From: Flavipsychrobacter sp.
Lineage (GTDB): Bacteria > Bacteroidota > Bacteroidia > Chitinophagales > Chitinophagaceae
Reading direction: 5' to 3'
Length of the DNA stretch: 64,000 bases
NCBI GenBank assembly: GCA_021155965.1
Contig: JAJNBJ010000006.1
Span: 62,001 to 126,000 of the forward strand
Part shown: piece after piece, positions 1-24,952 of the stretch
Layout: every line of letters begins with the position of its first letter
Position numbering within the stretch: position 1 is the first letter of the stretch
Program-made: the position numbers and the translations under genes
The notes under the pieces: generated by a model
What the model saw: only the letters and a program-made list of their open reading frames with translations
Told to the model about the DNA's origin: nothing
Databases searched by the model: none

Positions 1-519
1 TGAAGCAGTTGTCGCTATAACTGTAACTGTTTTATGTATAGTGCAACCACCTAGGTGGTACATGATAGATGTTGTGCCTGCATGGCTGCCCGTAACAACG
101 CCTGAAGATGAACCGACTGTGGCGACATAAGTGGAGCCGGAAGTCCAATAGCCGCCTGAGGTTGAGGCTGTAAGGGTAGTGGAAGAACTTACACAGATGG
201 GGCTAGTGCCGCCGGAAATAGTACCCGGAGACGGGTTAACCGTAAAAGAGCCGTAAACAGAAGCAGCACCCAATGTATAGGTAATGCTGACAACACCTGC
301 TGAAACACCTGTAAGCGCCCCAACACCGGAGCCTACAGAAGTTACGGTAGCTACTGAGGGGTTACTGCTTGTCCAAGTGCCGCCGGGATCAAGGCTGTCA
401 ACCAGGTGAAGGGTTGAGCCAATACATACAGTGCCCGTTGACGGTAGAAACGGGGATAGTGCGTAGGATGCATAGGTGAGCATCGTTGCTAAAATACTTA
501 GCGTAATCAATTTTTTCAT
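1..519 (-). CDS. Secreted Ig-like (BIg2-like) repeat protein, N-terminal part, truncated by the window edge
   Basis: Open frame from ATG (complement of 517-519) running off the left edge: MKKLITLSILATMLTYASYA... signal peptide, then 'VCIGSTLHLVDS..GGTWTSSNPSVATV..GVSAGVVSITYT' units like those of the neighbouring genes. Not in the ORF track because it is incomplete. Confidence 0.85.
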   Translation of the reverse strand, partial: MKKLITLSILATMLTYASYALSPFLPSTGTVCIGSTLHLVDSLDPGGTWTSSNPSVATVTSVGSGVGALTGVSAGVVSITYTLGAASVYGSFTVNPSPGTISGGTSPICVSSSTTLTASTSGGYWTSGSTYVATVGSSSGVVTGSHAGTTSIMYHLGGCTIHKTVTVIATTAS

Positions 520-679: not shown

Positions 680-3600
680 TTATTGCCTGATTATGAGCCT
701 GCCGCTATAATGGATAGACTCCGACTTAAGCATGATCATATAAATACCATCTTTCAGGTCAGACAGGTTTACCTGGGTTTCACCTGATGCTTCATTAATA
801 TTCAGCGTTGTATGATACACCTCGCGGCCAATAATGTCTGACACAACCAATTTACACGCACCTGTTTCCTGGTTCTCCCATTTAACATTCACATTGCCGC
901 TGGTTGGGTTTGGATAAACACTCAATACTGCTTCGGCAGAAAGTGAAGCCACTTTGTTGGTTGCAGTATTTTTGGCTGCTGATGAGCCTGAGCCCATTTC
1001 TGAAAGAGAACTGGCCTCTGTTGGGTTCACGTCAGGTGTCAGCGGACCGAGAGGCCCTGTAACTGTTATGGTTTTGAACACGTTGCAAGGGCCGATAGCG
1101 TAGTTGATGTTCACGGTGCCTGATGCCACGCCTGTAACAAGGCCGCTGGTTGGATGCACGGTAGCCCTTGATGGGTTAGTGCTGGTCCATGTGCCGCCGG
1201 GAGTAGCTGAACTTAATGACAGTGTACCACCGGTAGTAACCGTAGAGCCACCAGTAATAGCAGCCGGGGTAAGGTGAACCGTAACTGGTTTTACAGCACG
1301 GCAGCCAGCCACTGTATAGGATATCGTTGCAACGCCTACACTCATGCCGTTTACCAAACCTGTAGATGTTACAGATGCTATTGCTGTACTGCTGCTTGTC
1401 CATGTACCACCCGGTGTAGGATCAGACAACATTATTGAGGAGCCTGTGCAAACTGTGGATGCGCCAACTATAGCAGCGGGAACGGGATTAACTGTTATTG
1501 ACCTGTATGCATAGCAGCCACCAACAGCGTAGTACACGGTTACAACACCAACACCAACACCCGTAACTACACCAGTAGAGCTTACTGTTGCGGTGCCTGT
1601 ATAGCCGCTTGCCCATGTGCCGCCCGATGGTGAACCTGTAAGTGTAAGTGTTGAGCCTAAGCATACTGTGCTGCCGCCGGTAATTGTTGATGAACCCGGG
1701 GTTATTGTTACTGTACGGGTTGCAAAGCAACTGCCGACGGAGTAGGTAATAGTTGCAGTGCCGGCAGACATACCTGTAATCACGCCTGTAGCGCTTACAC
1801 TGGCAATGGCTGTGGCGCTGCTGGTCCATGTGCCGCCTGATGGGGTAGCGCTGAGTGCGCCGGTGCTGCCTATGCATATAGAAACAGTACCTGTAATAAC
1901 AGGGGTTGCTGTGATAGTCATTGTTTTAGATGCGTAGCATCCGCCCAGCGCGTAGTAAATATTTACTACGCCGGGAGCAAGACCGGTAACTACACCGGAT
2001 GAACTTACTGTAGCAATAGTTGATGAGCTGGTGGCCCATATGCCGCCAGACGGAGTAGATGAAAGTGTGACTGATGAGCCAACGCATGTGCTGCTGCTGC
2101 CGGTAATGGCTGAGCTGCCGTTGACTGTAACTGTGCGGACAGCTGCGCAACCCGACGTTGGCGCATAAGTGATGTTGACAACACCTGTGCTGACCCCGCT
2201 CACTACACCAGCAGAGTTTACGGTAGCTATAGCCGTATTGCTGCTGCTCCATGTGCCGCCTGTTGGGGTTGCTGCGAGTGTCATTGTTGTGCCGAGGCAC
2301 ATTGAGCTGCTGCCAGATATCACTGCGCCAGCAGTAACGGTTACCAGCTTAGTAGCGCTGCACCCGCCGGAAGTATAAGTGATCGTAGCTACACCTGTAC
2401 TCATTCCTGTAACAACGCCTGAAGATGATACTGCTGCAATAGCTGTGCTGCTGGTTGTCCATATTCCGCCTGTTGGAGAACCTGTTAATGTTATAGATGA
2501 GCCTGTACAAACGGTGCTGCTGCCTGTGATAGATGCCGAGCCACTGATTGCGATAGTGCGTGTAGCCCTGCACCCGCCTAATGTGTAGGTAATGATCACG
2601 CTGCCGGATGACAAGCCAGTAACTACGCCTGATGAACTTACCCATGCTTTTGTAGTATCGCTGCTGCTCCATGTTCCGCCTGTCGGGCTTCCGGTCAGGC
2701 TCATTGTAGCGCCTACGCAGAGGCCGCTTCCGCCACCGGAAATCGATACAGCGCTTACGGTAACTAATTTAGTTGCTGCGCATCCGCCTGCGGCATAAGT
2801 AATGGTAACTACGCCACCGCTAACACCGGTTACCATTCCTGTGGATGACACTGTAGCAATAGCTGTATTGCTGCTAGTCCAACTGCCGCCTGATGGAGTA
2901 GCGCCAAGCGTTATTGAAGAACCAGGGCAAACGGTGCTGCTGCCGCTGATAACTGCACTTGCGCTAACGGTTACGGTACGATATGTAGTGCAGCCGCTTG
3001 TTGGCGCGTAGTAAATATTTACTACCCCTACGCCCGTTGCTGTTACCAAACCTGTAGAAGTTACCACGGCAACAGTTGTGTTGCTGCTGCTCCATGCGCC
3101 GCCGGATGGGGTTGCGCTTAACGACATTGAGCTACCTACACACATTACACTGCCGCCACCGGAGATAATTGCGCCGGGGGTAACAGTAACTGTGCGCGAT
3201 GCCGAGCAGCCGCCTGAAGTGTAATAGATCGTAACTACGCCTGTAGCTAAACCTGATACCACTCCGGTACTGCTTACTATTGCTTTGGAAGAGTCGCTGC
3301 TGATCCATGTGCCACCACCCGGAGTTGCCGTTAATGTGATAGTGCCACCAACACATACTGTGCTGGTGCCTATAATGGCTGCTGCCGCGCTGACAGTAAC
3401 AGTGCGTGTAGCGATGCAACTGCTGCCAGCGCTATAAGAGATAGTAACCACACCCGCACTAACGGGGGAAACTACACCTGTGGAGCTAACGGTTGCTATA
3501 GCCGTGTTGCTGCTTGTCCATATGCCGCCGGTTGGTGAGCCTGATAATGTTAATACAGATCCTATGCAAACTGCACTGCCACCGGAAATAAGGCTGCCGG

Positions 3601-6600
3601 CGCCAACGGTGATCACTTTCACCGCAGTACATCCGCCGTTGGTATAGGTAATAGTTGCTGTGCCTGCAGACATGCCGGTAACCACACCTGTGGCGCTAAC
3701 GCTAGCTATAGCTGTGCTGCTGCTGGTCCATGTGCCGCCGCCGGGTGTTGCTGTAAGCGTTATGGTGGAACCGATGCAGACTGTGCTGCTGCCTGTGATA
3801 GCTGCTGCTGTGTTCACGGTAACTGATTTGTAAGTATAGCAACCACTGCTTGCATAATAAATGTTCACAACGCCGGTAGCAATTGCTGTTACCAAACCTG
3901 TTGGGCTTACTGTGGCAATTGCGGGGTTGCTGGTGCTCCAGGTCCCGCCCGTAGGTGTTGCTGTTAAGCTGGTTGTTGATCCGAGGCAAAGAGAACTGCT
4001 GCCCGAAATAACTGCAGATGTGCTTACTGTAACGGTCCGGAATGCGCTGCATCCGCCGGAGGAGTAGTAGATATTAACAATACCCCCTGCAACGCCGGTA
4101 ACCACGCCTGTGGAGCTAATGGTAGCAACAGAAGGGTTGCTGCTTGCCCATGTGCCGCCTGAAGGCGAACCTGCGAGGGCGGTTGACGAGCCAATGCATA
4201 CGCTGCTGCTGCCGGTAATAGTAGCGCCTGATGATACAGTAATTATTTTTGTAACGAAAGATGAACCTACCGTATAAGTAATCGTAACAGTTCCTGCAGA
4301 AACCCCGGTTACTACGCCTGCAGCGTTAACTGTTGCAATTGCCGTGTTGCTGCTGCTCCATGTGCCGCCGGTTACGCTGTTGGTCAACGTAATGGAAGAC
4401 CCTACGCATGTAGAAGACGGGCCGCCAATAGGAGGCAGTGTAGTGCTGCCGGTAACAACAAAAGTGATCGTTCTGAAGCAACCGCTGGCTAATGTGTATG
4501 TAATTGTACACGTACCGGCTGCTACGCCTGTAACTACGCCCGTTGCCGGGTTCACTGTTGCAATTGAAGTATTGCTGCTTGTCCATGTGCCACCGGCTGG
4601 TGTGCTGGATAAAGTGCTGATGCCGCCTATTGTTGCGGTTGTGGTGCCGGAAATAGTTGTTGGAGATGCAGTGACCGTAACCAGTTTGGTTGCTATGCAC
4701 CCGCCTGCAGTATAAGTAATAGTAACAACACCTGCCGACATACCTGTTACAGATCCGCCTGTGGTTGTAACGGATGCAATGGCAGTACTGCTGCTTGTCC
4801 ATGTTCCGCCTGTTGGCGTGCCGGATAATGTAATTGAAGCGCCTATACATACTGTAGATGGCCCGCCAATAGATGCGCTTGCAGTAATGGTTACCAGTTT
4901 GGTAACAAAGCTTGCGCCTACTGTATAAGTGATCGTTACAGTTCCTGCTGCAACGCCTGTAACTACTCCCGTTGAACTAACGGTAGCAACAGATGGGTTG
5001 CTGCTGCTCCATGTGCCGCCTGCGGTGCTGTCGGTAAGTGTAATAGAAGTGCCTACGCAAGTACTTGACGGGCCAACAATCGGACCGATAACCGTGATTG
5101 CCGGTGTAACTATGAATGTTATTGTCCTGAAGCATCCTGATGGTAAGGTATAAGTGATGGTGCATGTGCCTGCGGCAATGCCGGTCACCAACCCTGTGGA
5201 TGCACTTACTGTGGCAATAGCAGTGTTGCTGCTGCTCCAGGTACCGCCTGCGGTAGCATCAGATAAAGTGCTGGTGCCACCAACGGTTGTGGTTGCTACA
5301 CCTGCGATAGGCGCTGGTGCTGGTGTAACTGTAACTACTTTGTAAGCATTGCATCCGGCAGCCAGGTAATAGATAATAGCTGTTCCCGAACCCATGCCAG
5401 TAACCACTCCCGATGAGCCAACAGAAGCAATGGTTGGGGCGCTGCTGGTCCACGTGCCGCCCGTTGGGGTTGCAGTCAACGTTATGGTTGAACCTACACA
5501 CAACGAGCCTGGCCCAGAGATAGACGCCCCTGAATAAACGGTGACCAATTTTGTTGCAAAGCTGCTGCCTACAGTATAAGTTATGGTAACTGTGCCAGCG
5601 GAAACACCTGTTACCAGGCCGGTGGCGGAAACTGTTGCAACTGATGGGTTACTGGTGCTCCATGTGCCGCCCGGTGTGGCATTGGTGAGTAAAGTGGAAG
5701 AGCTGACACATACAGATGAACTGCCCATGATGGGGGCAATGGTGCTTGAAGAGGTAACAGTGACCGTTTTTGTAGCTGAACAGCCTGCAACAGTATAAGA
5801 GATAGTAACCACTCCGGTGGAGATGCCGGTAGTAATGCCTGATGTTGAGCCTATCATTGCAATTGAAGTATTGCTACTGCTCCAAATGCCGCCTGAAGTA
5901 GCATTGGTTAAAGTTATGGTGCTGCTTATCCCCACAGTTGATGGTCCCCCGATGAGTGCGGGCCCGGCGGTCACCGTTACGGCACGGGTAGCTAAACAGC
6001 CTGTTTCAACGTATGTTATGATCGCGACACCGGCGGACATACCTGTGACTACACCGCCGGAAGTAACCGATGCGATGGCCGTGGAACTACTGGTCCATGT
6101 TCCGCCACCTGAACCCGCATGGGTAAGTGTTATTGAATTTCCTACACACACTGTTGACGGGCCCGATATTGTTGGTATGGCGCCTACAGTAAATACCATG
6201 CTTATTGACGTTGTCCCGACAGTGTAAATGATATTTGTGGTGCCGGCGCTAATGGCTGTAGCTACGCCTGTAGTGGGGTTGATAGTAGCCACGGCAGTGT
6301 TGCTGCTGCTCCAGGTGCCGCCCGATGTACTATTGAAAAATGATACAACCGAGCCAGCACATGCCCTAGATGGGCCAATTATTGAGTCAAGAACAACGCA
6401 ATTGCTGTCGCGTACGGTATGTTGCGCTTTGCACCCGGCCGCAGAGGTATAGGTGACCACGCAGGTGCCAACACCAACACCGGTTATCATACCGGACGTG
6501 GGGGTGATGGTAAGCACCGTAGGGCATGCGCTTGACCATGTGCCGCCGGGAGGTGTTGCAACAAGGGTGATAAAGTTCCCGGTACATACAACTGTAGGCC

Positions 6601-6895
6601 CGCTGATAGCCGGCGTGGGGTGTACCGTTACCAGTTTCATAGATGGGCCTGTACCAAAACGCTGGAATTTTATGGTGTCCACGCCAGCCGCAACAGCAGT
6701 AGCAGCCCCTGTAACAGGGTTGATCGTAATTATTGACGGGAACGAGCTGATCCAGATACCGCTGTCACATATTGTAGTGTAGGTAAAAGACTGGCCGACA
6801 CACAAATGATCTGGTCCGGTGATAGGGCATTGTGCCCTGGAGGATGCAATTGAAAATAACATTCCTAACAGGACAAGCGAGAAGATTTTTTTCAT
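680..6895 (-). CDS. Giant secreted Ig-like (BIg2-like) repeat protein with T9SS C-terminal sorting domain, about 27 tandem units
   Basis: ORF 680..6922; the more likely start is the internal Met (complement of 6893-6895) giving signal peptide MKKIFSLVLLGMLFSIASSRAQ. About 27 GGxW-S-S-N units of ~70 aa; C-terminus 'VLSVYPNPTSGNVNVKWE...GIYMIMLKSESIHYSGRLIIRQ' typical of T9SS type A sorting domains. Confidence 0.9.
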   Translation of the reverse strand: MKKIFSLVLLGMLFSIASSRAQCPITGPDHLCVGQSFTYTTICDSGIWISSFPSIITINPVTGAATAVAAGVDTIKFQRFGTGPSMKLVTVHPTPAISGPTVVCTGNFITLVATPPGGTWSSACPTVLTITPTSGMITGVGVGTCVVTYTSAAGCKAQHTVRDSNCVVLDSIIGPSRACAGSVVSFFNSTSGGTWSSSNTAVATINPTTGVATAISAGTTNIIYTVGTTSISMVFTVGAIPTISGPSTVCVGNSITLTHAGSGGGTWTSSSTAIASVTSGGVVTGMSAGVAIITYVETGCLATRAVTVTAGPALIGGPSTVGISSTITLTNATSGGIWSSSNTSIAMIGSTSGITTGISTGVVTISYTVAGCSATKTVTVTSSSTIAPIMGSSSVCVSSSTLLTNATPGGTWSTSNPSVATVSATGLVTGVSAGTVTITYTVGSSFATKLVTVYSGASISGPGSLCVGSTITLTATPTGGTWTSSAPTIASVGSSGVVTGMGSGTAIIYYLAAGCNAYKVVTVTPAPAPIAGVATTTVGGTSTLSDATAGGTWSSSNTAIATVSASTGLVTGIAAGTCTITYTLPSGCFRTITFIVTPAITVIGPIVGPSSTCVGTSITLTDSTAGGTWSSSNPSVATVSSTGVVTGVAAGTVTITYTVGASFVTKLVTITASASIGGPSTVCIGASITLSGTPTGGTWTSSSTAIASVTTTGGSVTGMSAGVVTITYTAGGCIATKLVTVTASPTTISGTTTATIGGISTLSSTPAGGTWTSSNTSIATVNPATGVVTGVAAGTCTITYTLASGCFRTITFVVTGSTTLPPIGGPSSTCVGSSITLTNSVTGGTWSSSNTAIATVNAAGVVTGVSAGTVTITYTVGSSFVTKIITVSSGATITGSSSVCIGSSTALAGSPSGGTWASSNPSVATISSTGVVTGVAGGIVNIYYSSGGCSAFRTVTVSTSAVISGSSSLCLGSTTSLTATPTGGTWSTSNPAIATVSPTGLVTAIATGVVNIYYASSGCYTYKSVTVNTAAAITGSSTVCIGSTITLTATPGGGTWTSSSTAIASVSATGVVTGMSAGTATITYTNGGCTAVKVITVGAGSLISGGSAVCIGSVLTLSGSPTGGIWTSSNTAIATVSSTGVVSPVSAGVVTISYSAGSSCIATRTVTVSAAAAIIGTSTVCVGGTITLTATPGGGTWISSDSSKAIVSSTGVVSGLATGVVTIYYTSGGCSASRTVTVTPGAIISGGGSVMCVGSSMSLSATPSGGAWSSSNTTVAVVTSTGLVTATGVGVVNIYYAPTSGCTTYRTVTVSASAVISGSSTVCPGSSITLGATPSGGSWTSSNTAIATVSSTGMVTGVSGGVVTITYAAGGCAATKLVTVSAVSISGGGSGLCVGATMSLTGSPTGGTWSSSDTTKAWVSSSGVVTGLSSGSVIITYTLGGCRATRTIAISGSASITGSSTVCTGSSITLTGSPTGGIWTTSSTAIAAVSSSGVVTGMSTGVATITYTSGGCSATKLVTVTAGAVISGSSSMCLGTTMTLAATPTGGTWSSSNTAIATVNSAGVVSGVSTGVVNITYAPTSGCAAVRTVTVNGSSAITGSSSTCVGSSVTLSSTPSGGIWATSSSTIATVSSSGVVTGLAPGVVNIYYALGGCYASKTMTITATPVITGTVSICIGSTGALSATPSGGTWTSSATAIASVSATGVITGMSAGTATITYSVGSCFATRTVTITPGSSTITGGSTVCLGSTLTLTGSPSGGTWASGYTGTATVSSTGVVTGVGVGVVTVYYAVGGCYAYRSITVNPVPAAIVGASTVCTGSSIMLSDPTPGGTWTSSSTAIASVTSTGLVNGMSVGVATISYTVAGCRAVKPVTVHLTPAAITGGSTVTTGGTLSLSSATPGGTWTSTNPSRATVHPTSGLVTGVASGTVNINYAIGPCNVFKTITVTGPLGPLTPDVNPTEASSLSEMGSGSSAAKNTATNKVASLSAEAVLSVYPNPTSGNVNVKWENQETGACKLVVSDIIGREVYHTTLNINEASGETQVNLSDLKDGIYMIMLKSESIHYSGRLIIRQ

Positions 6896-7102
6896 AAAAT
6901 CAATTTTGGCAAGTGTTGTCAATTTGAAAGACTAAAAGTAAGGTTTTTCTTTAATAATATTTGTGGTTTAATGCACAATTAATAGACGAGTCATCTATCG
7001 AAAACGTTGGTGCTGTTGAAAAATATCTAATCACTTATGGGTTATTATGGATAGTTAATATTCTTATTTGATTTATCGGTATGATAAACTAACTATCGAT
7101 TA

Positions 7103-7130
7103 ATAAAAACACCCGGACTTGGCCGGGTGT
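7103..7130 (-). terminator. Rho-independent terminator downstream of the 7156-12036 gene
   Basis: Minus-strand ACACCCGG-CCAAGT-CCGGGTGT followed by TTTTTATTA. Confidence 0.8.
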
Positions 7131-7155
7131 TGGAAAAAAAGCAATCTTAATCTGG

Positions 7156-10100
7156 TCATTTTTGTATATATAATTTGCCGTAATAATTGGTGTGCCCGTC
7201 AGTAATTGTAAAGAAATATATACCATCGACCAATTCTGCCAGTGATACCGTTGCCCTGGAAGAGGGTGCGTTAATGCTTATGGTTGATGTATGCACTTTG
7301 CGCCCGGCAACATCAGCGATCACCATAGTGAAAGTTCCGGGATCAAAGTCCTGCCATTGGATGATGATGTCGCCACTCGTAGGGTTGGGGAATATCCTGA
7401 CAGAACCAATCTCACCTTCGGTGGCAACAATACTGAAGCCGTTTGAATCTACCGGCTTTAAGTGCCGGGTTTCACCTGACGTACTACTTGCAGATGCAGT
7501 GGAACTTGTTGCGGTAACCGGGGTGCCAACTGGAGGGAATAATGTTACCGTAATTGGTTTCACCGTGGCGCAGCCACCCCACCAGTATTGAATATTGGTT
7601 GTGCCAAGTGTGAGGCCCATAACTACCCCGGTTGTAGGGCCCACTGATGCAACACCCGCGTTGGTAGAGAACCATGTTCCACCGGGGGATGCATTAGTAA
7701 GCGTAATACTGCTTCCTATCCGTACCGAGCCGGGCCCCATAATGGGTGCAGGATTTGGGTTCACTGTTACGGGTTTCACTGCTGAACAACCACTGCTCAT
7801 GGTGTAACTGATAATAGCAACCCCGGCGCCTACGCCAGTCACGTTACCTCCGCTCACAGTTGCAATCGCTGTGCTGCTGCTGCTCCACGTACCACCGCCC
7901 AATGAACTTGTGAAGGTGATGGTTGAACCGACGCATACAGGCCCGCTGCCTGATATTACTGCGCCCGCGCCTATTGTTACCGTATGGTAGGCAGAGCAAC
8001 CGTTGAGTGTGTATGTGATAGTAACTGTGCCGGCACTGATGCCTGTGACCTGCCCGAAAGCATTAACTGACGCCAAAGAAGGATTACTGCTGGCCCATAC
8101 CCCGCTTGATGGGAAACCGACCAATGACAGTGGTGTGCCGGTACATACTGCTGAACCTCCTGTTATAGTTGGGGTAGGGTTAATTGTAACCGGCTTAACA
8201 GCGAAACAGCCGCCTAAATTATAAGTAATGGTTGCTGTGCCCCCTGACATACCTACAACAGTACCTGATGAGGTAACGGTAGCTACCGACGGATTGCTTG
8301 TGCCCCATGTACCACCAGCGGAAGAACCAGAAAGTATTATAGCTGAACCTGAACAAAGCGTGCTGCTGCCAAGAATAGTTGGCGCGCCTGTAACTGTTAA
8401 TGTTTTATACGCATAGCATGAACCCAGGGTGTAACTGATATTGACAGCACCACCGCCAAGGCCTGTGACAATGCCCGATGGGTTGACAATAGCCCGGAAT
8501 GTATTGCTGCTGCTCCATGAGCCGCCTGTGGGCGAACCGGTGAGCGTGAGTGGAACACCGATACATACAACGCTGCCACCGCTGATTACGGGGGTAGCAT
8601 GCACTGTAACTGTGGTATAAGTAAAACATCCGCCTGTAGTATAAGTGATGTTGGCAATGCCTGCACCAACGCCTGTTACACTACCTGATGAACTAACTGT
8701 AGCAACGGCGGTATTGCTGCTGCTCCACACGCCGCCCGAAGAGGCGGAGAGCGACAGTATATCGCCTGAGCAGATGGGGCCGCCGCCACCCGTTATGATG
8801 GGTGCGCCTGATACCGTTACAGTGATGTACGCGGAACATGAGCCAGCTGTGTAACTGATATTGACAACGCCACCGCCAAGCCCAGTAACCACCCCCATCG
8901 AGTTGACAATAGCACGGAATGTATTGCTGCTGCTCCATGTGCCACCGGCAGGTGTGCCTGTAAATGCGGATGGAGTGCCGATACAAACCAGGCTGGGGCC
9001 AGAGATAGTTGCAGATGTGCTGACCGTTATGGTTTTGTATGCATAGCAACTGCCGGTAGTGTATGTGATGTTGACCACACCCGCAGCAATACCTGTCACT
9101 GATCCGGTTGGGGAAACAGTAGCAACTGCAATGTTGCCGCTGCTCCATGTGCCACCTGAAACAGAACCGGTTAATGTTATTGATGAACCGGTGCAAATGG
9201 GCATATCACCTGTAATGACCGGGCTGCCATTTACTGTAACTGCTATGTATGATGCGCAGCCACCCATTGTATAGCTAATATTGGCCACGCCTGCAGCGAC
9301 ACCGGTTACAATGCCCGTAGAACCAACAATAGCTATCCCTGTGCTGCCGCTTGACCAAGTGCCACCGGCTGGCGTAGCGGACAATGTTGTTGTCATACCA
9401 ATACAGATGGCGCCGCCCCCGGTAACTGCAGCGCCGGTACCTACATTAATGGTCTTAAAGCTATAGCAGCCCCCCTGCGTGTAATAGATATTTACAACGC
9501 CATTGCTTACCCCGGTTACTAAGCCGGATGAACTAACTGTTGCAACAGTAGGTGTTCCGCTTGTCCATGAGCCGCCTGCAGGCGTTGTTGAGAGCATAGC
9601 AGTATAACCAACACACAAACTGCTGCTGCCTGTGATCGTTGGTGCTGCATTTATTATTACCGTATAATATCCGTAGCAGCCACCTGCAAAATAGGTAATT
9701 GTAGCTGTGCCTGCGCTGAGGCCTGTTAATACGCCTGATGAGCTAATGGTAACGAGTGCAGTATCAGCAGTACTCCATGTGCCGCCGGATACGGAGGCGG
9801 TGAGTGTATGCGGGATACCGGTGCAAACCGATGGAGGGCCCGAAATAGCGGCTGAAGAGTAAACCGTAAATGTGTGTGTTACGAACAATGTGCCCACAGT
9901 ATAGGTAATAATGCATGTGCCTGCGGCAGTGCCGGTAACCACACCAAGTGGTGAAACCGAAGCAATTGCGGGATGACTACTGCTCCATGTGCCGCAGCAA
10001 GTGCTGCTGGCAAGTGCAACCATAGAGCCTACACATGTGCTTGAGGGGCCGGTGATGGGTGATATGGAAGTTGTGCCTACAGTGAAAGGCACATATATAA

Positions 10101-12036
10101 AACACCCGCCCACGTTGTAGGTAATGTTGCAAGTGCCGGAGGCTATGCCTGTAACAAAGCCGCTTGATGAACCAACGGTAGCGATCATGGGGTTTGAAGA
10201 ACTCCATGTGCCGCCGGGAGTAGCACAGGTTAATGTTGAAGTGCCGCCAGGCGCCACTGTTGTTGTACCCATAATAGGCGCAGGCGCGGTATTAACTGTA
10301 ACAGGTTTGAAATTGTAGCAGCCGCTGGCTGTGTAATAGATATTCACTACGCCGGAGCTTACTGCGGTAACTAATCCTGCTGGGCTTACGGTTGCTACAG
10401 ATGGGCTGCCGCTTGTCCATGAACCGCCGGTGGGAGTGACTGCTAAGGTCGTATTAATGCCCACACATAATGAGCCGGGGCCTGTAATGACAGGGATTGG
10501 ATTAACAGATAATGTGTAAGGGGCGCTGCAGCCGCCACGAGTATAGCTGATGGTAACTAAGCCGCTACCTGTGCCTGTTACTACCCCGGCAGAGCCAACA
10601 GTTGCGATCATGATATTGCTGCTGCTCCACGTGCCGCCTGATGGGCTGCCGGATAACGGCACTGTAGCGCCTACGCAAACAGAAGTGCCCCCAGAAACAA
10701 CAGGTGAAGCGTTTACCGTCATTGTTTTGTAGCCAACACATCCAAAAGCATGGTATGTTATGGTTGCTGTTCCTGAACTTGTGCCGGTAACAATGCCTGT
10801 GCTGCCAACAGCAGCAACCATTGTGCTGCTGCTGGTCCATGAACCACCTGTTGGTGAGCCTGTGAGTATTGTTGGATAGCCGATACATGCCGTGCTGCTG
10901 CCTGTGATGCTTGCTGTTGGGCTGACGGTAATTGTTTTATATGCCGAGCATGTGCCGGACGTATAAGTAATTGTAGCTGTCCCTGCGCTAATGCCGGTAA
11001 TGATGCCGGTGCTGCCAACGGTGGCTATCATGGTGTTACTGCTGCTCCATGTGCCGCCTGATGGTGATGCGGTGAGCATTGTGGTTAACCCGGTACAAAC
11101 GGTGCTGCTGCCTGATATGGAAGGGGTAGTGTTTACAATAAACGAACGGGTAACATATGCGCTGCCCACTGTGTAAGTAATGGTTACTGTTCCTGCTGCA
11201 ATGCCATTTACTACTCCCATGGTGTTGATGGTTGCTATGGCAGTATTGCTGGTGTTCCATGTGCCTCCGGATGGTGTAGCCGTAACAGTTGCCATAGAGC
11301 CAGCACAGGTGCTTGTACTGCCTGAAATGGGGGAGATAGATGTAGTAACGGTTACAAGCGCTGTTGCATAACAGCCGCCAACTGAATAGGTGATATTGCA
11401 CGAGCCTGCAGTTATACCGGTTACAACACCACTACCGGAACCTACAGTTGCAATAGCTGTATTAGAACTTGTCCAAACGCCACCACTTACGGTGCTGCTA
11501 AGGGTTGTTGTGAAGCTTGTGCCTACTGTAGTGATGCCTGTAAGCGGTGGGATAGAAGGGCTAACATTCACGATCTGGTAGGCATAGCAACCGCCGCCCG
11601 TGTAATAGATGTTGACAATGCCTGTGCCTACACCTGTAACATGGCCGGTAGAGCTGACTGTGGCAACTGTGGGTGTGCCGCTTGTCCAGGAGCCGCCTGC
11701 GGGGTAGCCTGTGAGCGAGATGTTGTTGCCGGTGCAAACGCTTGTAGGGCCGGTGATGACATTGGCAGGATTAACCGTGAAGGGCGTTGTTACATAAGAA
11801 GAACCTATAGCATAAGTAATGGTACATGTGCCTGCTCCAATACCTGATACAAGCCCTGATGAGCTGACAGTGGCTACTGATGGATTACTGCTGCTCCATG
11901 TCCCGCCGGGGGTGGCATCGCTGAGCGTGGCTGTCCAGCCTACACAGGTTGTGGTACTGCCGACAATTGGATCAATTGCATAAGACACTATGCTGCAAAA
12001 AATGCCCAGGAGAAAAAGAGCAAATGCTTTCTTCAT
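7156..12036 (-). CDS. Giant secreted Ig-like (BIg2-like) repeat protein with T9SS C-terminal sorting domain, about 21 tandem units
   Basis: 1626-aa ORF; signal peptide MKKAFALFLLGIFCSIVSYA; repeated 'xxCxG..L...GGTWSSSNxxVATV..G.VTG...G...I.Y..GGC.A...VTV'; C-terminus 'VRIFPNPTSGDIIIQWQ...GIYFFTITDGHTNYYGKLYIQK'. Confidence 0.9.
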   Translation of the reverse strand: MKKAFALFLLGIFCSIVSYAIDPIVGSTTTCVGWTATLSDATPGGTWSSSNPSVATVSSSGLVSGIGAGTCTITYAIGSSYVTTPFTVNPANVITGPTSVCTGNNISLTGYPAGGSWTSGTPTVATVSSTGHVTGVGTGIVNIYYTGGGCYAYQIVNVSPSIPPLTGITTVGTSFTTTLSSTVSGGVWTSSNTAIATVGSGSGVVTGITAGSCNITYSVGGCYATALVTVTTSISPISGSTSTCAGSMATVTATPSGGTWNTSNTAIATINTMGVVNGIAAGTVTITYTVGSAYVTRSFIVNTTPSISGSSTVCTGLTTMLTASPSGGTWSSSNTMIATVGSTGIITGISAGTATITYTSGTCSAYKTITVSPTASITGSSTACIGYPTILTGSPTGGSWTSSSTMVAAVGSTGIVTGTSSGTATITYHAFGCVGYKTMTVNASPVVSGGTSVCVGATVPLSGSPSGGTWSSSNIMIATVGSAGVVTGTGSGLVTISYTRGGCSAPYTLSVNPIPVITGPGSLCVGINTTLAVTPTGGSWTSGSPSVATVSPAGLVTAVSSGVVNIYYTASGCYNFKPVTVNTAPAPIMGTTTVAPGGTSTLTCATPGGTWSSSNPMIATVGSSSGFVTGIASGTCNITYNVGGCFIYVPFTVGTTSISPITGPSSTCVGSMVALASSTCCGTWSSSHPAIASVSPLGVVTGTAAGTCIITYTVGTLFVTHTFTVYSSAAISGPPSVCTGIPHTLTASVSGGTWSTADTALVTISSSGVLTGLSAGTATITYFAGGCYGYYTVIINAAPTITGSSSLCVGYTAMLSTTPAGGSWTSGTPTVATVSSSGLVTGVSNGVVNIYYTQGGCYSFKTINVGTGAAVTGGGAICIGMTTTLSATPAGGTWSSGSTGIAIVGSTGIVTGVAAGVANISYTMGGCASYIAVTVNGSPVITGDMPICTGSSITLTGSVSGGTWSSGNIAVATVSPTGSVTGIAAGVVNITYTTGSCYAYKTITVSTSATISGPSLVCIGTPSAFTGTPAGGTWSSSNTFRAIVNSMGVVTGLGGGVVNISYTAGSCSAYITVTVSGAPIITGGGGPICSGDILSLSASSGGVWSSSNTAVATVSSSGSVTGVGAGIANITYTTGGCFTYTTVTVHATPVISGGSVVCIGVPLTLTGSPTGGSWSSSNTFRAIVNPSGIVTGLGGGAVNISYTLGSCYAYKTLTVTGAPTILGSSTLCSGSAIILSGSSAGGTWGTSNPSVATVTSSGTVVGMSGGTATITYNLGGCFAVKPVTINPTPTITGGSAVCTGTPLSLVGFPSSGVWASSNPSLASVNAFGQVTGISAGTVTITYTLNGCSAYHTVTIGAGAVISGSGPVCVGSTITFTSSLGGGTWSSSSTAIATVSGGNVTGVGAGVAIISYTMSSGCSAVKPVTVNPNPAPIMGPGSVRIGSSITLTNASPGGTWFSTNAGVASVGPTTGVVMGLTLGTTNIQYWWGGCATVKPITVTLFPPVGTPVTATSSTASASSTSGETRHLKPVDSNGFSIVATEGEIGSVRIFPNPTSGDIIIQWQDFDPGTFTMVIADVAGRKVHTSTISINAPSSRATVSLAELVDGIYFFTITDGHTNYYGKLYIQK

Positions 12037-12273: not shown

Positions 12274-14976
12274 TCAATGCGCTACAACCAGTTTTGATGC
12301 ATAAAAGAGGTCGGTTGAGCTGATGGTAATGTGGTATACACCACCAGGTATGTGACTAAAGTCAAGCGCACTATGGCCATTGGCAGTTGTGGGATCTATT
12401 GAGGCATTGTAAACCGTTCGCCCCTGCATATCCCTTACAATGATAGCCGTATTTGCTGCGGCAGTTACCGGCCAGTTTATATGTAAATAACGGGACGTGG
12501 GGACAGGATAAACAGCTATTGTGCCGATCGCTGTAGCGGTCAGTATCCGTGTATAATCATACGGCTTGATGGTGCCTAAAGTTGTGCTCTTCCTGAAGCT
12601 GATGCCTGAAGCAGAAGGGGAGGATGCACTAAGCGTGATAGTGGCAGATGGGGTTGTATAGTATTTATGTTCTTCGGGATATACAAAGTAGGTGCCATTC
12701 GCCAGGCCGGTGAATGAGTAATTGCCTGTTGCATCGGTATAGGTGTAGGTGATCATGCTGCCGGTGCTGTTGTATAGATAGATGAGCATACCTGGCTCCG
12801 GTATATCCCCCGATGTGCCTTTACCAGCACCAAATGCCACATAGCCGCTGATGAAACCCGGCCCTGAAGGCACGGTGCCATATACCATGCTGATGTTGGC
12901 AATATCTCTTGATGAGGTATGGGCAATACTTGTTGCCGCATACCAGTTGGGTGTAGAAGTATAGTAAGTAGGTATGTAACCACTGGTGCCTGCTACCGTG
13001 CCATTCAGTTTAGCCTTGACCAGGTAGCTGCCTGCTGCGGGGGTAGGGAACTCATAATATGGAGTGGTGCCGGAGATCATACAACTGCTTGTGGAGTCAA
13101 GAGCAGTTATGGAGCTATCGGAAGGGTTGAATTGTATGAGCCATACTTTGAAGACATCGGTTGAAGACCCGCCTGTGTAGGTGATTTGTCCTGCTATGCG
13201 GTTTGCGATTACAGTAACGGTTGCTGTGTTAGAGCAACCTGAACCATCAGTGCCTGTAACGGTGTAGGTTGTTGCAGTAGTTGGTGTAGCGTCAGTAACG
13301 CCACAAGTGGAGCATGAAAGCCCTGTAGATGGCGACCACGAATAGGTAACACCACCTGACGCTGTTATGGTTTCTGCACCACCACATGGATAGGTAGACG
13401 ATGTGGTGATTGTTGGTGAACCAACAGTCATGGTTATTGGAGCAGATATGGCTGTGCTTGTAGTTACGCATATGCTACTGGAAGTTATGACCACTTCAAT
13501 AACATCACCGGTTACCAATGTGGCAGAAGTATAACTTGAACCTATTGCTCCGGTTATGGGAGTGCCGTTTAATTGCCATTGGTAACTTGGTGTCACGCCT
13601 GCTGATAAGGCTACTCCGCTGAAAGTAACCGTTGTTCCGGCGCACACTGTAGCGCCGGGGCTTGCAGTAACTGTTACGGAGGGCGTAGAGATCGGTGTGA
13701 TTGCGACTGTTGCACTGCCAGACATATTGTTGGTACACATGGTAGTAGTATTGGTTGCAACAACGGTATAGGAGCCAGCGGAGGTATGTAAGCCAAAACT
13801 GATAGCACTGCCTGTGCCGGTAATGGGAGGACCTGCCGTAGATGAACCTGCTATAAGCTGGTAGCTGACGCCTGCATCAGAACTGCTTAATCCTATCGTA
13901 ACACCGCTGCCGCCCGCGCAGTAGCTGCCGCCGCCGGTTACGGAGTAAACTGTGGGCAAGGGGTGGATGGCTAAAGTGGCAGTGGCAGTGGCGCTCATAC
14001 AGCCGGTTGACAGGTCTGTTGCTCTAACAAAATAGGTGCCCGCAGTAGTCATTGCAGGCCAGGAAAGGGAAGACCCGGTGCCAGGTGCTGGTGTGCCTAT
14101 TGGGGTACTACCCATGTAAAGCTGATAGTCAACACCTGTTTGTGAACCACTTAATGTTAATGTAGAACCGCTGCCGCCAGCGCAGTAACCGCCACCGGCA
14201 AAAGATAAAGTATAAACAGTTGGCAGAGGAGTAACAGTTACAGTTACAGCGCTCGCCATTGCCGTGGAACAGGATGTGCCGGGATAAGCTGCTGCAGTAT
14301 ATGTTGCGGGTGAGGCTATCAAACCAAAGCTAATTGCAGCGCCTGTGCCGGTAACAGGGGCGCCTACTGGAAAGGCCCCATTATGCAACTGGTAACTTAC
14401 ACCGGCCTGAGAACCACTTAACCCAATAGTAACACCTGTGCCCCCTGAACAGTAGCTGCCGCCACCGGTCAGGGTATAAACAATCGGTGTTGGTGTTACG
14501 GTGAATATCATACTTGTAGAGCAGCCAGTAGGAAGGGTATAGCTGATAGCAACCGTGCCAAGGGATACTCCTGTTGCCATGCCTATAGAACCGATGGTCG
14601 CTATTGAAGCGGTAGCACTTGACCAAATGCCACCGGGTGTAGCAGAGGTAAGTATGGTTGAGCCGGTTATGCATATTGAAGAAGGGCCGGTAATGGGAGC
14701 GGGCATTGGATTTACGGTAATGGGGTAAGTGACGGAGCTGGCACCGACCGTATAGGTAATAGTAGCAGTGCCAGCCGAAATACCGGTTGCTATGCCTGTG
14801 GCAACACTAATAGTTGCCACAACAGGCGTGCTACTGGTCCATGTACCACCCGGTGTTGAGTTAGTATAAGTGCCGGTATAGCCTATGCAAATTGAAGGCG
14901 GCCCGCTGATAGGCGCCTGACTGAAAGAAATAACAGAAATTAAAAGCGCAATGATAGTGAGTTGTATGTGCTTCAT
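12274..14976 (-). CDS. Secreted multidomain surface protein: 2 BIg2-like units, 3 'YCSGG...YQLY' repeats, Ig-like domains, carboxypeptidase-regulatory-like domain, T9SS tail
   Basis: 900-aa ORF; signal peptide MKHIQLTIIALLISVISFSQ; repeats 'YxxTGGGSYCSGGxGVxIxLSGSQxGVSYQLxxG'; 'GYVAFGAGKGTSGDIPEPGMLIYLYNSTG..YTYTDATGNYSFTGLANGTYFVYPEE' resembles CarboxypepD_reg/SdrD-like; 'IAVYPVPTSRYLHINW...' tail. Confidence 0.88.
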   Translation of the reverse strand: MKHIQLTIIALLISVISFSQAPISGPPSICIGYTGTYTNSTPGGTWTSSTPVVATISVATGIATGISAGTATITYTVGASSVTYPITVNPMPAPITGPSSICITGSTILTSATPGGIWSSATASIATIGSIGMATGVSLGTVAISYTLPTGCSTSMIFTVTPTPIVYTLTGGGSYCSGGTGVTIGLSGSQAGVSYQLHNGAFPVGAPVTGTGAAISFGLIASPATYTAAAYPGTSCSTAMASAVTVTVTPLPTVYTLSFAGGGYCAGGSGSTLTLSGSQTGVDYQLYMGSTPIGTPAPGTGSSLSWPAMTTAGTYFVRATDLSTGCMSATATATLAIHPLPTVYSVTGGGSYCAGGSGVTIGLSSSDAGVSYQLIAGSSTAGPPITGTGSAISFGLHTSAGSYTVVATNTTTMCTNNMSGSATVAITPISTPSVTVTASPGATVCAGTTVTFSGVALSAGVTPSYQWQLNGTPITGAIGSSYTSATLVTGDVIEVVITSSSICVTTSTAISAPITMTVGSPTITTSSTYPCGGAETITASGGVTYSWSPSTGLSCSTCGVTDATPTTATTYTVTGTDGSGCSNTATVTVIANRIAGQITYTGGSSTDVFKVWLIQFNPSDSSITALDSTSSCMISGTTPYYEFPTPAAGSYLVKAKLNGTVAGTSGYIPTYYTSTPNWYAATSIAHTSSRDIANISMVYGTVPSGPGFISGYVAFGAGKGTSGDIPEPGMLIYLYNSTGSMITYTYTDATGNYSFTGLANGTYFVYPEEHKYYTTPSATITLSASSPSASGISFRKSTTLGTIKPYDYTRILTATAIGTIAVYPVPTSRYLHINWPVTAAANTAIIVRDMQGRTVYNASIDPTTANGHSALDFSHIPGGVYHITISSTDLFYASKLVVAH

Positions 14977-15150: not shown

Positions 15151-18100
15151 TTATTGTTCGATCACCAACCGCCAGGTATAGTTCAAGTGCTCACCTTTAA
15201 CAGAAAGCAGGTAAACGCCATTGGTCAGGTTGCCAAGGTTGGCTTGCGTTTCGCCTGATGGTTGCGATAAGTTTAGCTGCGTATTATATACCTCCTGTCC
15301 AACAACGTTGGTAACAGACAGGGTTGCTGTGCCAGTAGTTTGCTCAGCCCACCTGATGTTTATTTTGCCTGTAGTAGGGTTGGGGTAGATGTGAATATTC
15401 CCTGCGCCTGTCTTCATGGAAGCAACACCTGTTACCGATACAGGCACTATCCTGCGCGATGTGGTGTATTGCATGAAGCGCACATTCTTTGCAGAGTCTG
15501 CGCCGGGAGAAAGCACAATAGTAGCAGATGGAGTTGTATTATACAGGAACTCCTCAGGGTATATCACATAGTTGCCTTCAGCTATATTGCTGAAGGAGTA
15601 GTTCCCGTCTGCATCGGTATATGTATAAGTAAGTATGAAGTTGCTCACAGCATCTTTCAGGTAAACGATCATGCCTTCGGCAGGTATGCTGCCCGAAGTG
15701 CCTTTGCCTGCCCCCGATGATATGGAACCTCCAATAAAGCCCGGGCCGGGTGGCACTGTGCCATAGATCATATTGATGTGCAGGGAGTCTGTTGCGTTGG
15801 TATGTGTTGCTGTAGCAGCATTATACCAATAAGGAGTTGAGAGGCTGTAAGTTGGTATGTAGCCGCTGGTGCCCGGTATAGTGCCCATCAGTTTAGCTTT
15901 CACATAATAAGTGTTTGCAGGCTTGCCCACAAATTCAAAATAGGGTGTGCCGGAGCTCATGCAGGTGTATGTGGAGTCGACGCCTGTAAGTGTGCTGTCG
16001 GATGGGTTGAAGTGGATGAGCCAAACTTTGAAGACATCGGATGACAGGCCGGTATAAGAAATGTGCCCTGATACGCGGTTGCCATTCACGCTTACTGCTG
16101 CTTTGGATGAGCATCCTGTAGCTGCCGTACCTGTAACGGTATAATTGGTGTTCGCCATGGGGCGGGCAATAGTTGTAGCACAAGTGCTGCATGACAAGCC
16201 TGCTATTGGCAGCCATGAATAGGTAACACCGCCATTGGCAGCGAGGTTATAGGTGCCGCCGCATGCTGCTGCCGAACTGCTGGCTGTAACAGTTGGTACG
16301 GGGTTCACCGTGACCACAATGATGGATGTGCAACCCAGCAAGGAATAGCTGATGGTAGTGATGCCCATTGACATACCGGTAAGCACGCCCAGTGTTGTGC
16401 CGATAGTGGCTACGTTGGCTATAGATGGGTTGCCTGGTATCCAAACGCCGCCGGGGGTGCCCGTGAGGTTTGTGCTTGAACCAACGCAAATACGCGTAGA
16501 GCCTGAAACACTTGGGTTTGGCCTTACGGTCATGGTCACATTATCAGTAACAGTAGCAGGGGTAGGGCATGCGGCATTGCTCAACATGCTTACCCGGACA
16601 ACATCTGCATTCGAAGGCAAATAGCTGTAGGAAGCACCGGTGCCGACAACTGCACCATTCACTGTCCATTGGTAAGTGGGGGCAGCGCCGCCATTCATTG
16701 ATATGGCAGTGTAAGTGACTAGTATGCCGGTGCATAATGTATCATCCGGTGTGGTACTGATGCTGACAGTTGGAGTTACCGTTGGGGTTATTGAAACGGT
16801 GGCACTGCCGGTCATGCTGCTGATGCAACCAGACGGGTTTGTGGCTGCAACAGTATAGACCCCGGTTGATGTTTGTAGCCCGAAATCAAGTGATGAACCT
16901 GTACCTACCAGTGTACCTGCCAATGTGGAACCGTTATACATGCGGTAGGTAACACCGGGGCTGGAAATACCCAGGCCAATACGCACGCCCGTTCCGCCGG
17001 AGCAATAACTGCCGCCACCTGTAACTGTGAAAATTGATGGGGCAGGGTTAATCACAACCGTAGCGCTGCTGTTCATTGTTTTGGGGCAGCCTACCAGTGG
17101 GTCTGTAGCTATTACTGTGTACGTGCCCATTACGGTTTGCAAACCAAAGTCGAGGGCTGCGCCTGTGCCTGCCAGTGGTAAGCCCACTGCAGTTGTTCCG
17201 AACATCAACTGATAATTGGTCCCGATAATAGAGCCGGAAAGCCTGATATGCACACCAGAGTCGCCCGCACAATAGCCACCGCCGCCTGTAACAGTGTACG
17301 CAACAGGCAATGGTTTTACGCTGATCACTGCGCTGTCGGTCATCCAGGTAGCACATCCATTTGATGCGTTAACAGCTTTGATGAGGTATGAACCGGCAAC
17401 AAATCGTGGACCGAAATCCAAAGTCCCGCCGGTGCCGGATAAAGACGTGCCCGTTACCAATCCGCCCTGGTATACCCAATAGTTTGTGCCTACCTGGGAA
17501 GAAGCTAACTTTACATTTATGCCTCCACCGCCTGAACAATAGGAGCCATCACCCATAACCATATATGCAGTCGGGGATGGGACAGGCATTATTGAAGGGG
17601 TGCCAGACATATTCGATGTGCAGCCACTAGCAATATTTGTTGCTTTTACTGTATAAGTAGCATACGCGGTCTGGTAGCCAAAATTAATTGCGCTTCCCGT
17701 GCCGGTTACTACACTGCCTACAGGTATGCTGCCGCTGTATAACTGGTAATTTACGCCTGTGGAAGAAGAAGAAAGCGATACCATTACACCTGCGCCGCCG
17801 CTACAGTATGTTGACGCACTGGCAGATACAGTATACACAGGTGGCAAGGGGTTTACAGATACATTGATCGTTCCCGTCATGCTCCTTGTGCAGCCTGTTA
17901 CCGGGTTGGTAGCAATGGCCGAATAAAGTCCGCTGGTATGGTAGTTAAAATCAATTACTGTTCCGGTACCCATCATCGCGCTGCCGGATGGTAAGCTGCC
18001 GTTGAGCAACTGGTAGCTGATACCCACATCAGAAGTGGCCAGGTTTATGCGTGCGCCGGATGTACCCGAGCAGTAGCTGCCTGCGCTGGTCAATGAATGT

Positions 18101-19848
18101 GTATTGGGGAGCGGGTTAACCACAAGCGTCGGCGTGCCTGACATTTGTGTCCAGCAGCCTGTAATGACATCTGTTGCCGTTACAACGTATATTCCCGGAG
18201 TTGAATGAACGCCAAAATCATAGGATGGGCCGCTGCCCATTACAGGAGGGCCATCATTGATACCGTTTATCTGTAACTGGTACCGTATACCAACAGTAGT
18301 GCTGTTCAATTGAACATGCGGGCCCGGGCTGCCTGCGCATATAGTTGAATCGGTTAGGGATACGGTGTGTGATGCAGGTAAGCTGTTAACAATTATTGTT
18401 GCACTGCCGTTCATGTTGCTAATGCAGCCTGTAGCAAGATTGGTGGCAACAACGGTATATATACCGGCTGTGCCATGTATACCAAAATCAAGTGCACTGC
18501 CGGTGCCCCCTATCGACATACCCGTAAAGCTGCCACCCCTGTATAGTTGGTAATTGAGGCCGGCTTGTGAGCCGCTTAAGTTTACGTGATAAGCCGGATC
18601 ACCCGGGCAATAGGCACCGCCGCCCGTAACATTGAATTGTGTTGGCAAGGGATTGATAGCTATGTTAGAAGTACCCGGCAATACAGTATTACATCCTGTA
18701 GCCGGGTTGGTAGCTTTAATGGTATAAGAAGCTGCCATCGTCTGCATGCCAAAGTTCACTGCAGCGCCGGTACCGGGGATAGCAGACCCTACCATTGCAG
18801 TGCCACGAAATAACTGGTAGCTTATACCGGTTTGTGAAGATGGAAGTGTAACAGCAACACCTGACCCTCCTGAGCAATAAGAGCCCATTGAAGGAGAAAT
18901 AGTATAAGCAGTTGGCAGAGGGTTGACACTTACCAGCCTTGTTGTTCTGCAACCTGTTGGCAAGGTATAAGATATGGTTACAGTACCTGCTGTTATCCCG
19001 GCCACTGCGCCCGTTGTAGCGCCTACAGTTGCCACTGACGGGTTACTGCTGCTCCATATACCGCCTGCAGTGCCATCGGCCAGGAAAATAATGTCTGAAA
19101 TACATGCACCTGCAGGGCCGCTGATGGGTGCAGGCAGCGGGTTTACTGTCACATAAGTGCTGGTGATGCAACTGTTGATAGAATAGTAGATCGCAGCAGT
19201 TCCGGCTGATACAGCACTTACGGTGCCGCTTGCTGAGCCAACAGTTGCCACGCCGGGGCTGCTGCTGGTCCATGTGCCGCCTGATACGGGATTGAACAGC
19301 GATGTGGTGTTGCCGGCACATACAGCAGTCATGCCGGTTATAGCCGCAGGCGTTGCGTTAACAGTTACCGGCTGTATGGCAGCACAACCGCCAGCTAAAG
19401 TATACTGGACATCAGCAGAACCTGCTGCTAAGCCGGTAATAACACCAAAGGACGAAATACTGGCCACCGAAGGGTTGGTGGTACTCCATGTGCCGCCTGC
19501 CGTAGGGTTTGTAGCCGGTATGTTGGAGCCAACACACATAGAAGTGAGGCTGCTGATCGCTGCCGGTGAAGGGTTGACCGTTATTGATGTAACAGTATAA
19601 AGCCCCCTGGTGTAGGTAATATTTACCACGCCCGCTGATATACCGGAAACAACTCCGGATGATGAGCCAATAAATGCAATGGAAGTGTTACTGCTGCTCC
19701 AAGTGCCGCCTGCAGAAGTATCGCTAAGTATTATAGTATTACCTGTACAAACAGTTGAAGGGCCTGTAATAGGCCCGATCTGTGCATGGCCGCACAAAGA
19801 AAAAATCAAAACCGCAAGGGTGAGGGTTACGTATCTCATCACATTCAT
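15151..19848 (-). CDS. Secreted multidomain surface protein: BIg2-like units, 8 'YCSGG...YQLY' repeats, Ig-like, carboxypeptidase-regulatory-like domain, T9SS tail
   Basis: ORF 15151..19950; likely start at internal Met (complement of 19846-19848; the next Met at 19837-19839 is also possible) before signal peptide MRYVTLTLAVLIFSLCGHAQ. C-terminus 'IHIYPNPTTGKINIRWAEQTTG...GVYLLSVKGEHLNYTWRLVIEQ'. Confidence 0.88.
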   Translation of the reverse strand: MNVMRYVTLTLAVLIFSLCGHAQIGPITGPSTVCTGNTIILSDTSAGGTWSSSNTSIAFIGSSSGVVSGISAGVVNITYTRGLYTVTSITVNPSPAAISSLTSMCVGSNIPATNPTAGGTWSTTNPSVASISSFGVITGLAAGSADVQYTLAGGCAAIQPVTVNATPAAITGMTAVCAGNTTSLFNPVSGGTWTSSSPGVATVGSASGTVSAVSAGTAAIYYSINSCITSTYVTVNPLPAPISGPAGACISDIIFLADGTAGGIWSSSNPSVATVGATTGAVAGITAGTVTISYTLPTGCRTTRLVSVNPLPTAYTISPSMGSYCSGGSGVAVTLPSSQTGISYQLFRGTAMVGSAIPGTGAAVNFGMQTMAASYTIKATNPATGCNTVLPGTSNIAINPLPTQFNVTGGGAYCPGDPAYHVNLSGSQAGLNYQLYRGGSFTGMSIGGTGSALDFGIHGTAGIYTVVATNLATGCISNMNGSATIIVNSLPASHTVSLTDSTICAGSPGPHVQLNSTTVGIRYQLQINGINDGPPVMGSGPSYDFGVHSTPGIYVVTATDVITGCWTQMSGTPTLVVNPLPNTHSLTSAGSYCSGTSGARINLATSDVGISYQLLNGSLPSGSAMMGTGTVIDFNYHTSGLYSAIATNPVTGCTRSMTGTINVSVNPLPPVYTVSASASTYCSGGAGVMVSLSSSSTGVNYQLYSGSIPVGSVVTGTGSAINFGYQTAYATYTVKATNIASGCTSNMSGTPSIMPVPSPTAYMVMGDGSYCSGGGGINVKLASSQVGTNYWVYQGGLVTGTSLSGTGGTLDFGPRFVAGSYLIKAVNASNGCATWMTDSAVISVKPLPVAYTVTGGGGYCAGDSGVHIRLSGSIIGTNYQLMFGTTAVGLPLAGTGAALDFGLQTVMGTYTVIATDPLVGCPKTMNSSATVVINPAPSIFTVTGGGSYCSGGTGVRIGLGISSPGVTYRMYNGSTLAGTLVGTGSSLDFGLQTSTGVYTVAATNPSGCISSMTGSATVSITPTVTPTVSISTTPDDTLCTGILVTYTAISMNGGAAPTYQWTVNGAVVGTGASYSYLPSNADVVRVSMLSNAACPTPATVTDNVTMTVRPNPSVSGSTRICVGSSTNLTGTPGGVWIPGNPSIANVATIGTTLGVLTGMSMGITTISYSLLGCTSIIVVTVNPVPTVTASSSAAACGGTYNLAANGGVTYSWLPIAGLSCSTCATTIARPMANTNYTVTGTAATGCSSKAAVSVNGNRVSGHISYTGLSSDVFKVWLIHFNPSDSTLTGVDSTYTCMSSGTPYFEFVGKPANTYYVKAKLMGTIPGTSGYIPTYSLSTPYWYNAATATHTNATDSLHINMIYGTVPPGPGFIGGSISSGAGKGTSGSIPAEGMIVYLKDAVSNFILTYTYTDADGNYSFSNIAEGNYVIYPEEFLYNTTPSATIVLSPGADSAKNVRFMQYTTSRRIVPVSVTGVASMKTGAGNIHIYPNPTTGKINIRWAEQTTGTATLSVTNVVGQEVYNTQLNLSQPSGETQANLGNLTNGVYLLSVKGEHLNYTWRLVIEQ

Positions 19849-20004
19849 CTTTGAGGTGACAAAACATAATGGTTTGTTATTAATATGTTGTTTCACCCTC
19901 CATATGTATAAGGCGTAAAAAGTGTCCTTAATGTTAGTACTGTCCGGCATATTTTTTTATTTAATAATACATAACCAGAATATTAATTATCATGTTCTAC
20001 CAGG

Positions 20005-24182: not shown

Positions 24183-24192
24183 TACTTTACTT

Positions 24193-24726: not shown

Positions 24727-24952
24727 AGCAGGACTCTTTTCTGATGCAGGAAAGTGAGTGCTTACGTGTAAAGTTTTAGGCAATGCGCTGGTCAAGTTTG
24801 GCTATTTCTACATTTCTTAAATTTTTCAAAGTTCAAACGCTCAGGGTCCCACACTTATATAGGCGTTTGTACAGCTAAAAATGTTAGAGTTGCAAAAATA
24901 TATTTTTTAAAACTATGTATTTATCTATTCCACAATTCATTAAAAACCTCAT

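Follow-up and report, generated by a model that had tools for sequence, protein, structure and literature searches.

Tandem Big_2 immunoglobulin-like (Ig-like) domains build the stalks of Leptospira LigA/LigB and of intimin/invasin (PMC7821625). The Lig domains lack cysteines bridging the Ig sheets, and they are thought to interact via salt bridges across 3-aa linkers (PMC7821625). The cross-linked stalk adhesins of Gram-positive bacteria, such as the Mobiluncus mulieris adhesin, have long Ig stalks reinforced covalently by isopeptide, ester or disulfide bonds (PMC10619420, PMC12617251). Strong mechanical force acts on the gliding adhesins of Bacteroidota, and disulfides already have a role in their anchoring (PMC12635249). 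We analyzed a 64,000-nucleotide stretch of a Flavipsychrobacter sp. genome (contig JAJNBJ010000006.1, positions 62,001 to 126,000; hereafter the window), in which two adjacent genes on the minus strand encode proteins 1 and 2, consisting almost entirely of Big_2 domains (PF02368). Like the Gram-positive stalks, these arrays would be covalently reinforced. Whereas the Gram-positive cross-links lie within one domain, those proposed here join neighbouring domains, with cap units at the ends: from cysteine patterns and structural models, the arrays are very probably inter-domain disulfide ladders in which the first cysteine (Cys1) of domain n is bonded to the second (Cys2) of domain n+1.

Among proteins of solved structure, the closest relative by profile was grappling hook protein A (GhpA) of Aureispira sp. 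CCB-QB1 (5898 aa; PDB 9FLP, 9FLV, 9FLW and others), which matched in many stretches (E=1.3e-57) and was also found by fold search. GhpA has a long Ig-like array whose cysteines occupy the same two sites in the stretches compared, and the profile matches indicate that the arrays of the window are homologous to the GhpA-type grappling hook array. The two differ in domain packing (template modelling (TM) score 0.39-0.44). The Lig and intimin/invasin stalks, of the same Pfam family, were represented by profile matches to 2MOG, 2MQG and 1F00. A Pfam scan of the window proteins gave no match to isopeptide or ester cross-link families; Lys-Asn or Thr-Gln residues were not examined. No report of inter-domain disulfides in bacterial Ig arrays was found in the literature, the GhpA structure paper being outside the search. 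Cytophagalysin is not a ladder, having just one disulfide, which joins the catalytic domain to an Ig-like domain (PMC11674741).

Unit types and cysteine positions

Repeat units were parsed with a hidden Markov model (HMM) built from the window's own repeats. The three unit types described in the initial annotation were recovered, and they differ only in the cysteines retained. Cys1 lies in an 'xCVG' motif at the AB turn, and Cys2 in a 'GGC' motif at the FG turn or start of strand G. A units have Cys1 without Cys2, C units have the reverse, and B units have both.

Protein 1 (680..6922, minus strand, 2080 aa) comprises a putative signal peptide, 27 Big_2 units and a C-terminal type IX secretion tail (Pfam Big_2 E=1.5e-122, Por_Secre_tail E=2.8e-13). 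From the N-terminus, its units parse as A-B / A-B-C / A-B-C / A-B-C / A-B14-C. Units 1-2 (6404..6826) are a divergent A, B pair of their own with extra cysteines. Triplet 1 occupies 5753..6385 (A 6182-6385, B 5969-6172, C 5753-5956) and triplet 2 occupies 5105..5734, with A at 5534-5734 (Cys1 5708-5710), B at 5324-5524 (Cys1 5498, Cys2 5351) and C at 5105-5311 (Cys2 5132). Triplet 3 lies at 4451..5083, with A at 4883-5083 (Cys1 5057), B at 4670-4873 (Cys1 4847, Cys2 4697) and C at 4451-4657 (Cys2 4478). The remainder of the array had been described as a B run closing with a C unit, and this is what the parse returned: a terminal A-B14-C ladder at 1058..4432 (A 4232-4432, fourteen B units 1274-4222, C 1058-1261).

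Protein 2 (7156..12036, minus strand, 1626 aa) has 21 units (Big_2 E=1.1e-89) and ends in a type IX secretion tail (Por_Secre_tail E=3.1e-9). The order A, B(n), C and A again, noted earlier for this neighbour, was borne out as A-B-C / A-B4-C / A-B10-C. Por_Secre_tail (PF18962/TIGR04183) was matched in window proteins 1, 2, 3 and 5. A hydrophobic N-terminus is visible as a putative signal peptide, and proteins 1 and 2, combining an N-terminal signal with a C-terminal sorting domain, are predicted substrates of type IX secretion. In protein 2, unit 9 (10075-10278), of C type, carries additional cysteines, in strand B (LTCATP) and in strand F (GTCNITY), which would fit a classical intra-domain Ig disulfide. 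The strand-F GTC was seen again in several A and C units.

The structure prediction of an A-B-C run, suggested with the initial annotation, was performed with AlphaFold2 (AF2) on triplet 3 of protein 1 together with 90 related triplets, and gave a mean predicted local distance difference test score (pLDDT) of 97.7 and a predicted TM score (pTM) of 0.83. In the model, Cys1 closes the first strand, ahead of the AB turn, and Cys2 opens the last strand, strand G, so that the two lie at opposite ends of a strand of ~10 residues. By Ig topology, the two cysteines are thus predicted at opposite poles of the domain, Cys1 toward the next domain and Cys2 toward the previous one. Because of these opposite positions in the predicted fold, a bond within one domain is implausible and a Cys1(n)-Cys2(n+1) bond is plausible.

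Coupling across junctions and at array ends

The test set comprised 816 units from other arrays of the window's own genome, from 40 regions of same-family relatives, and from L063, an ortholog (46% identity) and the sole close homolog that the GTDB scan returned. The presence of Cys1 in a domain agreed with that of Cys2 in the following one at 658 of 664 adjacent junctions (640 both present, 18 both absent). The junction table [[640,5],[1,18]] gave a Fisher p of about 1e-29, uncorrected for relatedness. Four of the 6 discordant junctions were at contig-end cuts and one was an HMM register miss (L106). The last, between units 2 and 3 of protein 1, had a compensating linker Cys; this residue, in 'DSNC' after unit 2, is a potential partner for the unit-2 Cys1. 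The own-genome units numbered 404 B, 12 A and 10 C, with 0 carrying neither cysteine, and this within-unit tally does not call for a same-domain bond.

The positions of the A and C units followed the same rule. A position was counted as legal when an A unit was first or followed a C, and when a C unit was last or preceded an A. With the window and L063 left out, all 22 A/C units (22/22) were in legal positions, compared with a mean of 6.0 and a maximum of 15 in within-array shuffles, 0/20,000 of which reached 22. L063 itself reads (AC)x7-ABBBC, in which the two-domain pairs have exactly one cysteine per domain. Only an inter-domain bond explains these AC pairs, which make no sense under an intra-domain bond. 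In L164 (G226, 5632-9861), eight B units and one C unit are followed by seven nearly identical Cys-free units (B8-C-o7), and the shift from Cys units to Cys-free units passes through the C unit. Among the distant loci, L174:6454-10497 has twelve near-identical tandem 81-aa units with both cysteines, a recent expansion of the same domain type.

Where arrays ran into the secretion tail, a linker Cys followed the terminal unit in 10/10 cases when that unit was B and in 0/5 when it was C (p=3e-4). Nearly all arrays starting with B were preceded by a linker Cys or by a Cys-bearing Ig- or cadherin-like domain, and in several of them the upstream domain had a single cysteine at a Cys1-like place ~96 residues ahead of the array. 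One exception among array starts was L110, whose first unit has no upstream cysteine but has an extra cysteine of its own.

Linkers were short and varied little where stapling is proposed, at 4-5 aa in the window and 5 aa in L063. Those at C/A junctions were 5-9 aa, and in L063 they were Gly/Ser-rich rather than Pro-containing. One of the three C/A junctions in protein 1, at 5085..5104 on the minus strand, is a proposed unstapled hinge with a linker longer than at stapled junctions. A lower pTM for a C-A-B than for an A-B-C run had been predicted ahead of the C-A-B run. AF2 gave 0.77 vs 0.83, with the block of lowest confidence at the C/A linker, a weak but concordant indication of a hinge there.

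Proposed ladder and rival explanations

In the mechanism that we propose, each Big_2 domain would contribute up to two cysteines at opposite poles, Cys1 at the bottom and Cys2 at the top, and Cys1 of each domain would bond to Cys2 of the domain that follows. The A unit would be the N-terminal cap, having Cys1 only and no partner ahead, and the C unit the C-terminal cap, with Cys2 only and no partner behind; between them, any number of B domains with both cysteines, including zero, could be inserted. A ladder might also finish with a lone linker Cys, or with a single-cysteine domain of another kind (Ig-, PKD- or cadherin-like). Capping would leave no ladder cysteine unpaired, and successive ladders would meet at an unbonded C/A junction acting as a hinge. 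The product would be a type-IX-secreted fibre, at the cell surface or released, of covalently stapled stiff segments and hinges, probably serving as a stalk or adhesin.

It is very unlikely that Cys1 and Cys2 are instead bonded inside each B domain, with A and C being units that lost one cysteine. B units, the majority, do hold both residues, but these are at opposite domain ends in the predicted fold, and the coupling runs across junctions. The A and C units would then bear free thiols, yet they have long been kept, and only at ladder ends (22/22), and the seven AC pairs of L063 would be bondless. We give an equally slight chance to cysteines that link different chains in a disulfide-crosslinked bundle, or that bind a ligand, with the end units lacking the outer cysteine owing to register. 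Inter-chain contacts are possible, since the solved homolog GhpA is a heptameric fibre according to a passage of PMC13319060 that cites Lien et al. 2024. An intra-chain bond directly accounts for the exact bookkeeping from n to n+1, including the linker Cys after a terminal B (10/10), whereas a bundle would need a one-domain stagger, and a metal site would take more than the two cysteines available.

The arrangement could also chiefly record the duplication, as blocks, of a 651-bp cassette and say nothing about pairing. A three-domain repeat of this length had been reported in the initial annotation, and it was confirmed: A units 12, 9 and 6 of protein 1 start 651 and 651 bp apart, unit 3 is a further 648 bp away, and an independent repeat search found a 222-nt family at 4212, 4863 and 5514 with spacings of 651 and 651 (identity 72%/66%). 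Tandem Repeats Finder reported no array in the window, because the repeat copies are just ~55-72% alike. The DNA landmark given for A units, GTATAAGT, did not hold up. It also occurs in B units (2373, 4710) and in a C unit (5148), and its A-specificity is ruled out: it codes for the strand-F 'TYT', and the window has 14 copies where 2.1 were expected.

In protein 1, A6/A9/A12 (66-72% DNA identity) and C8/C11 (65%) were most similar to their own type; the triplet B units (mutual identity 55-63%) were no closer to one another than to other B units (10B-21B = 72%). Between triplets 2 and 3, the A units were 68%, the C units 65% and the B units 60% alike. Since the triplet B units are not mutually closest, at most part of the A-B-C blocks was duplicated as blocks. 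The clade check proposed with the initial annotation succeeded in a tree that covered the two window proteins plus the ortholog, with cysteine columns included, where the types cluster (5 label changes vs 27.4 shuffled), and failed in a wider tree with cysteine columns masked, where they intermix (31 changes vs 46.1 shuffled). Pure A/B/C clades, which hold only in the former tree, were therefore rejected as a general description. The intermixing indicates that position set the A and C states, each of which arose more than once.

The spacing of the three A units, their 66-72% identity and the clustering of types in the smaller tree thus favour duplication. The same rule was nevertheless found in unrelated arrays with other spacings (A-B2-C, A-B4-C, A-B19, AC, B8-C-o7), it persists in the tree where types intermix, and duplication as the main cause is weakened further by the triplet B units and by the 22/22 legal cap positions. 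We consider it improbable, if slightly less so than the two preceding alternatives. On the sequence comparisons, some block duplication appears to have occurred, with A and C being states set by position. The reading of A as a start and C as a stop unit was thus strongly supported and extends to other arrays, and the cassette duplication offered to explain it stood only partly. Taken as a whole, the initial interpretation is partly supported, with start and stop forming a rule of function more than a record of duplication. The tree test weakened the lineage part; the proposed reason for the pattern is that cysteines of neighbouring domains pair.

Several observations weigh against a disulfide ladder. 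We infer the disulfide itself, rather than observing it, and likewise the stiffness and the stalk role. Although secreted proteins of the own genome contain hundreds of cysteines at regular positions, Pfam searches there matched none of DsbB, VKOR and Thioredoxin_4, and DSBA only once and weakly. For the Cys2 of the first L164 unit no partner is visible, and in L093 a Cys comes after the C unit. A further 14 apparent discordances in distant loci were ascribed to HMM register (11 in L174 checked on sequence, 3 in L172/L173 judged by eye). Because the repeats of one protein share ancestry, the p-values are nominal and overstate independence, and the pTM gap of 0.83 vs 0.77 is small.

Neighbouring genes and wider occurrence

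Further Ig-like genes flank proteins 1 and 2. A third capped array has its N-terminal part at 1..519 (minus strand), and the whole gene (L033) reads A-B-B-C. Upstream of protein 2, the minus-strand gene at 12274..14976 encodes an A-type and then a B-type unit followed by Ig_7 domains, and that at 15151..19950, also on the minus strand, starts with A-B-B-B before other Ig-like (Ig_7) domains. The claim that every Ig protein of the cluster begins with an A unit was true of 6/7 Big_2-bearing frames. In the seventh (20005-22533), the Big_2 units come after another domain, which bears a single Cys1-like cysteine. This frame has NHL/teneurin-like beta-propeller repeats, then the single-cysteine domain, then three B units, a layout found again at other loci. 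Inside the cluster of secreted Ig proteins, 22680-24795 encodes a predicted outer-membrane beta-barrel protein (weak match) and an extracytoplasmic function (ECF)-type sigma factor. Elsewhere in the own genome, with at least 148 Big_2 matches in all, open frames reach 9,551 aa and 5,284 aa (e.g. G000:C16:220000-258000, C37:1-20000) and consist largely of B-type units with interspersed Ig_7.

A comparable pattern was seen in two SprB-repeat proteins (L205:640-2727, plus strand; L213:154-2253, minus strand), where the first repeat has Cys1 only, later repeats have both cysteines, and the last PKD domain has Cys2 only. In both, the CHU_C domain lacks its N-terminal Cys. The SprB repeats and PKD/Ig_7 arrays of Bacteroidota adhesins thus share the cap pattern in these two loci, but they belong to different domain families and the proteins are few. 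An association of CHU_C with cap cysteines was not found with crude windows (p=0.19); redefined windows gave 6/2/2/10 (p=0.02), a lead only, as the windows were changed after the result was seen. We regard the SprB and CHU_C patterns as leads drawn from sequence. The chances are about even that surface proteins of Bacteroidota share a general assembly code, previously undescribed, in which unrelated Ig-like families (Big_2, SprB, PKD, Ig_7, cadherin-like) would be disulfide-stapled head to tail with one-cysteine caps at both ends, and stiff segments and hinges could be read from the cysteine pattern.

If the proposed pairing is true, it would account for the cysteine regularity in these repeats and would provide a designable module for stiff fibres. 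It would also pose the problem of bond formation in a genome without a recognisable DsbB or VKOR. Sequence alone would then predict the disulfide map, stiffness pattern and hinges of very large, poorly studied surface proteins of Bacteroidota, which reach 9,551 aa in this genome and among which the SprB-type gliding adhesins bear large mechanical loads.

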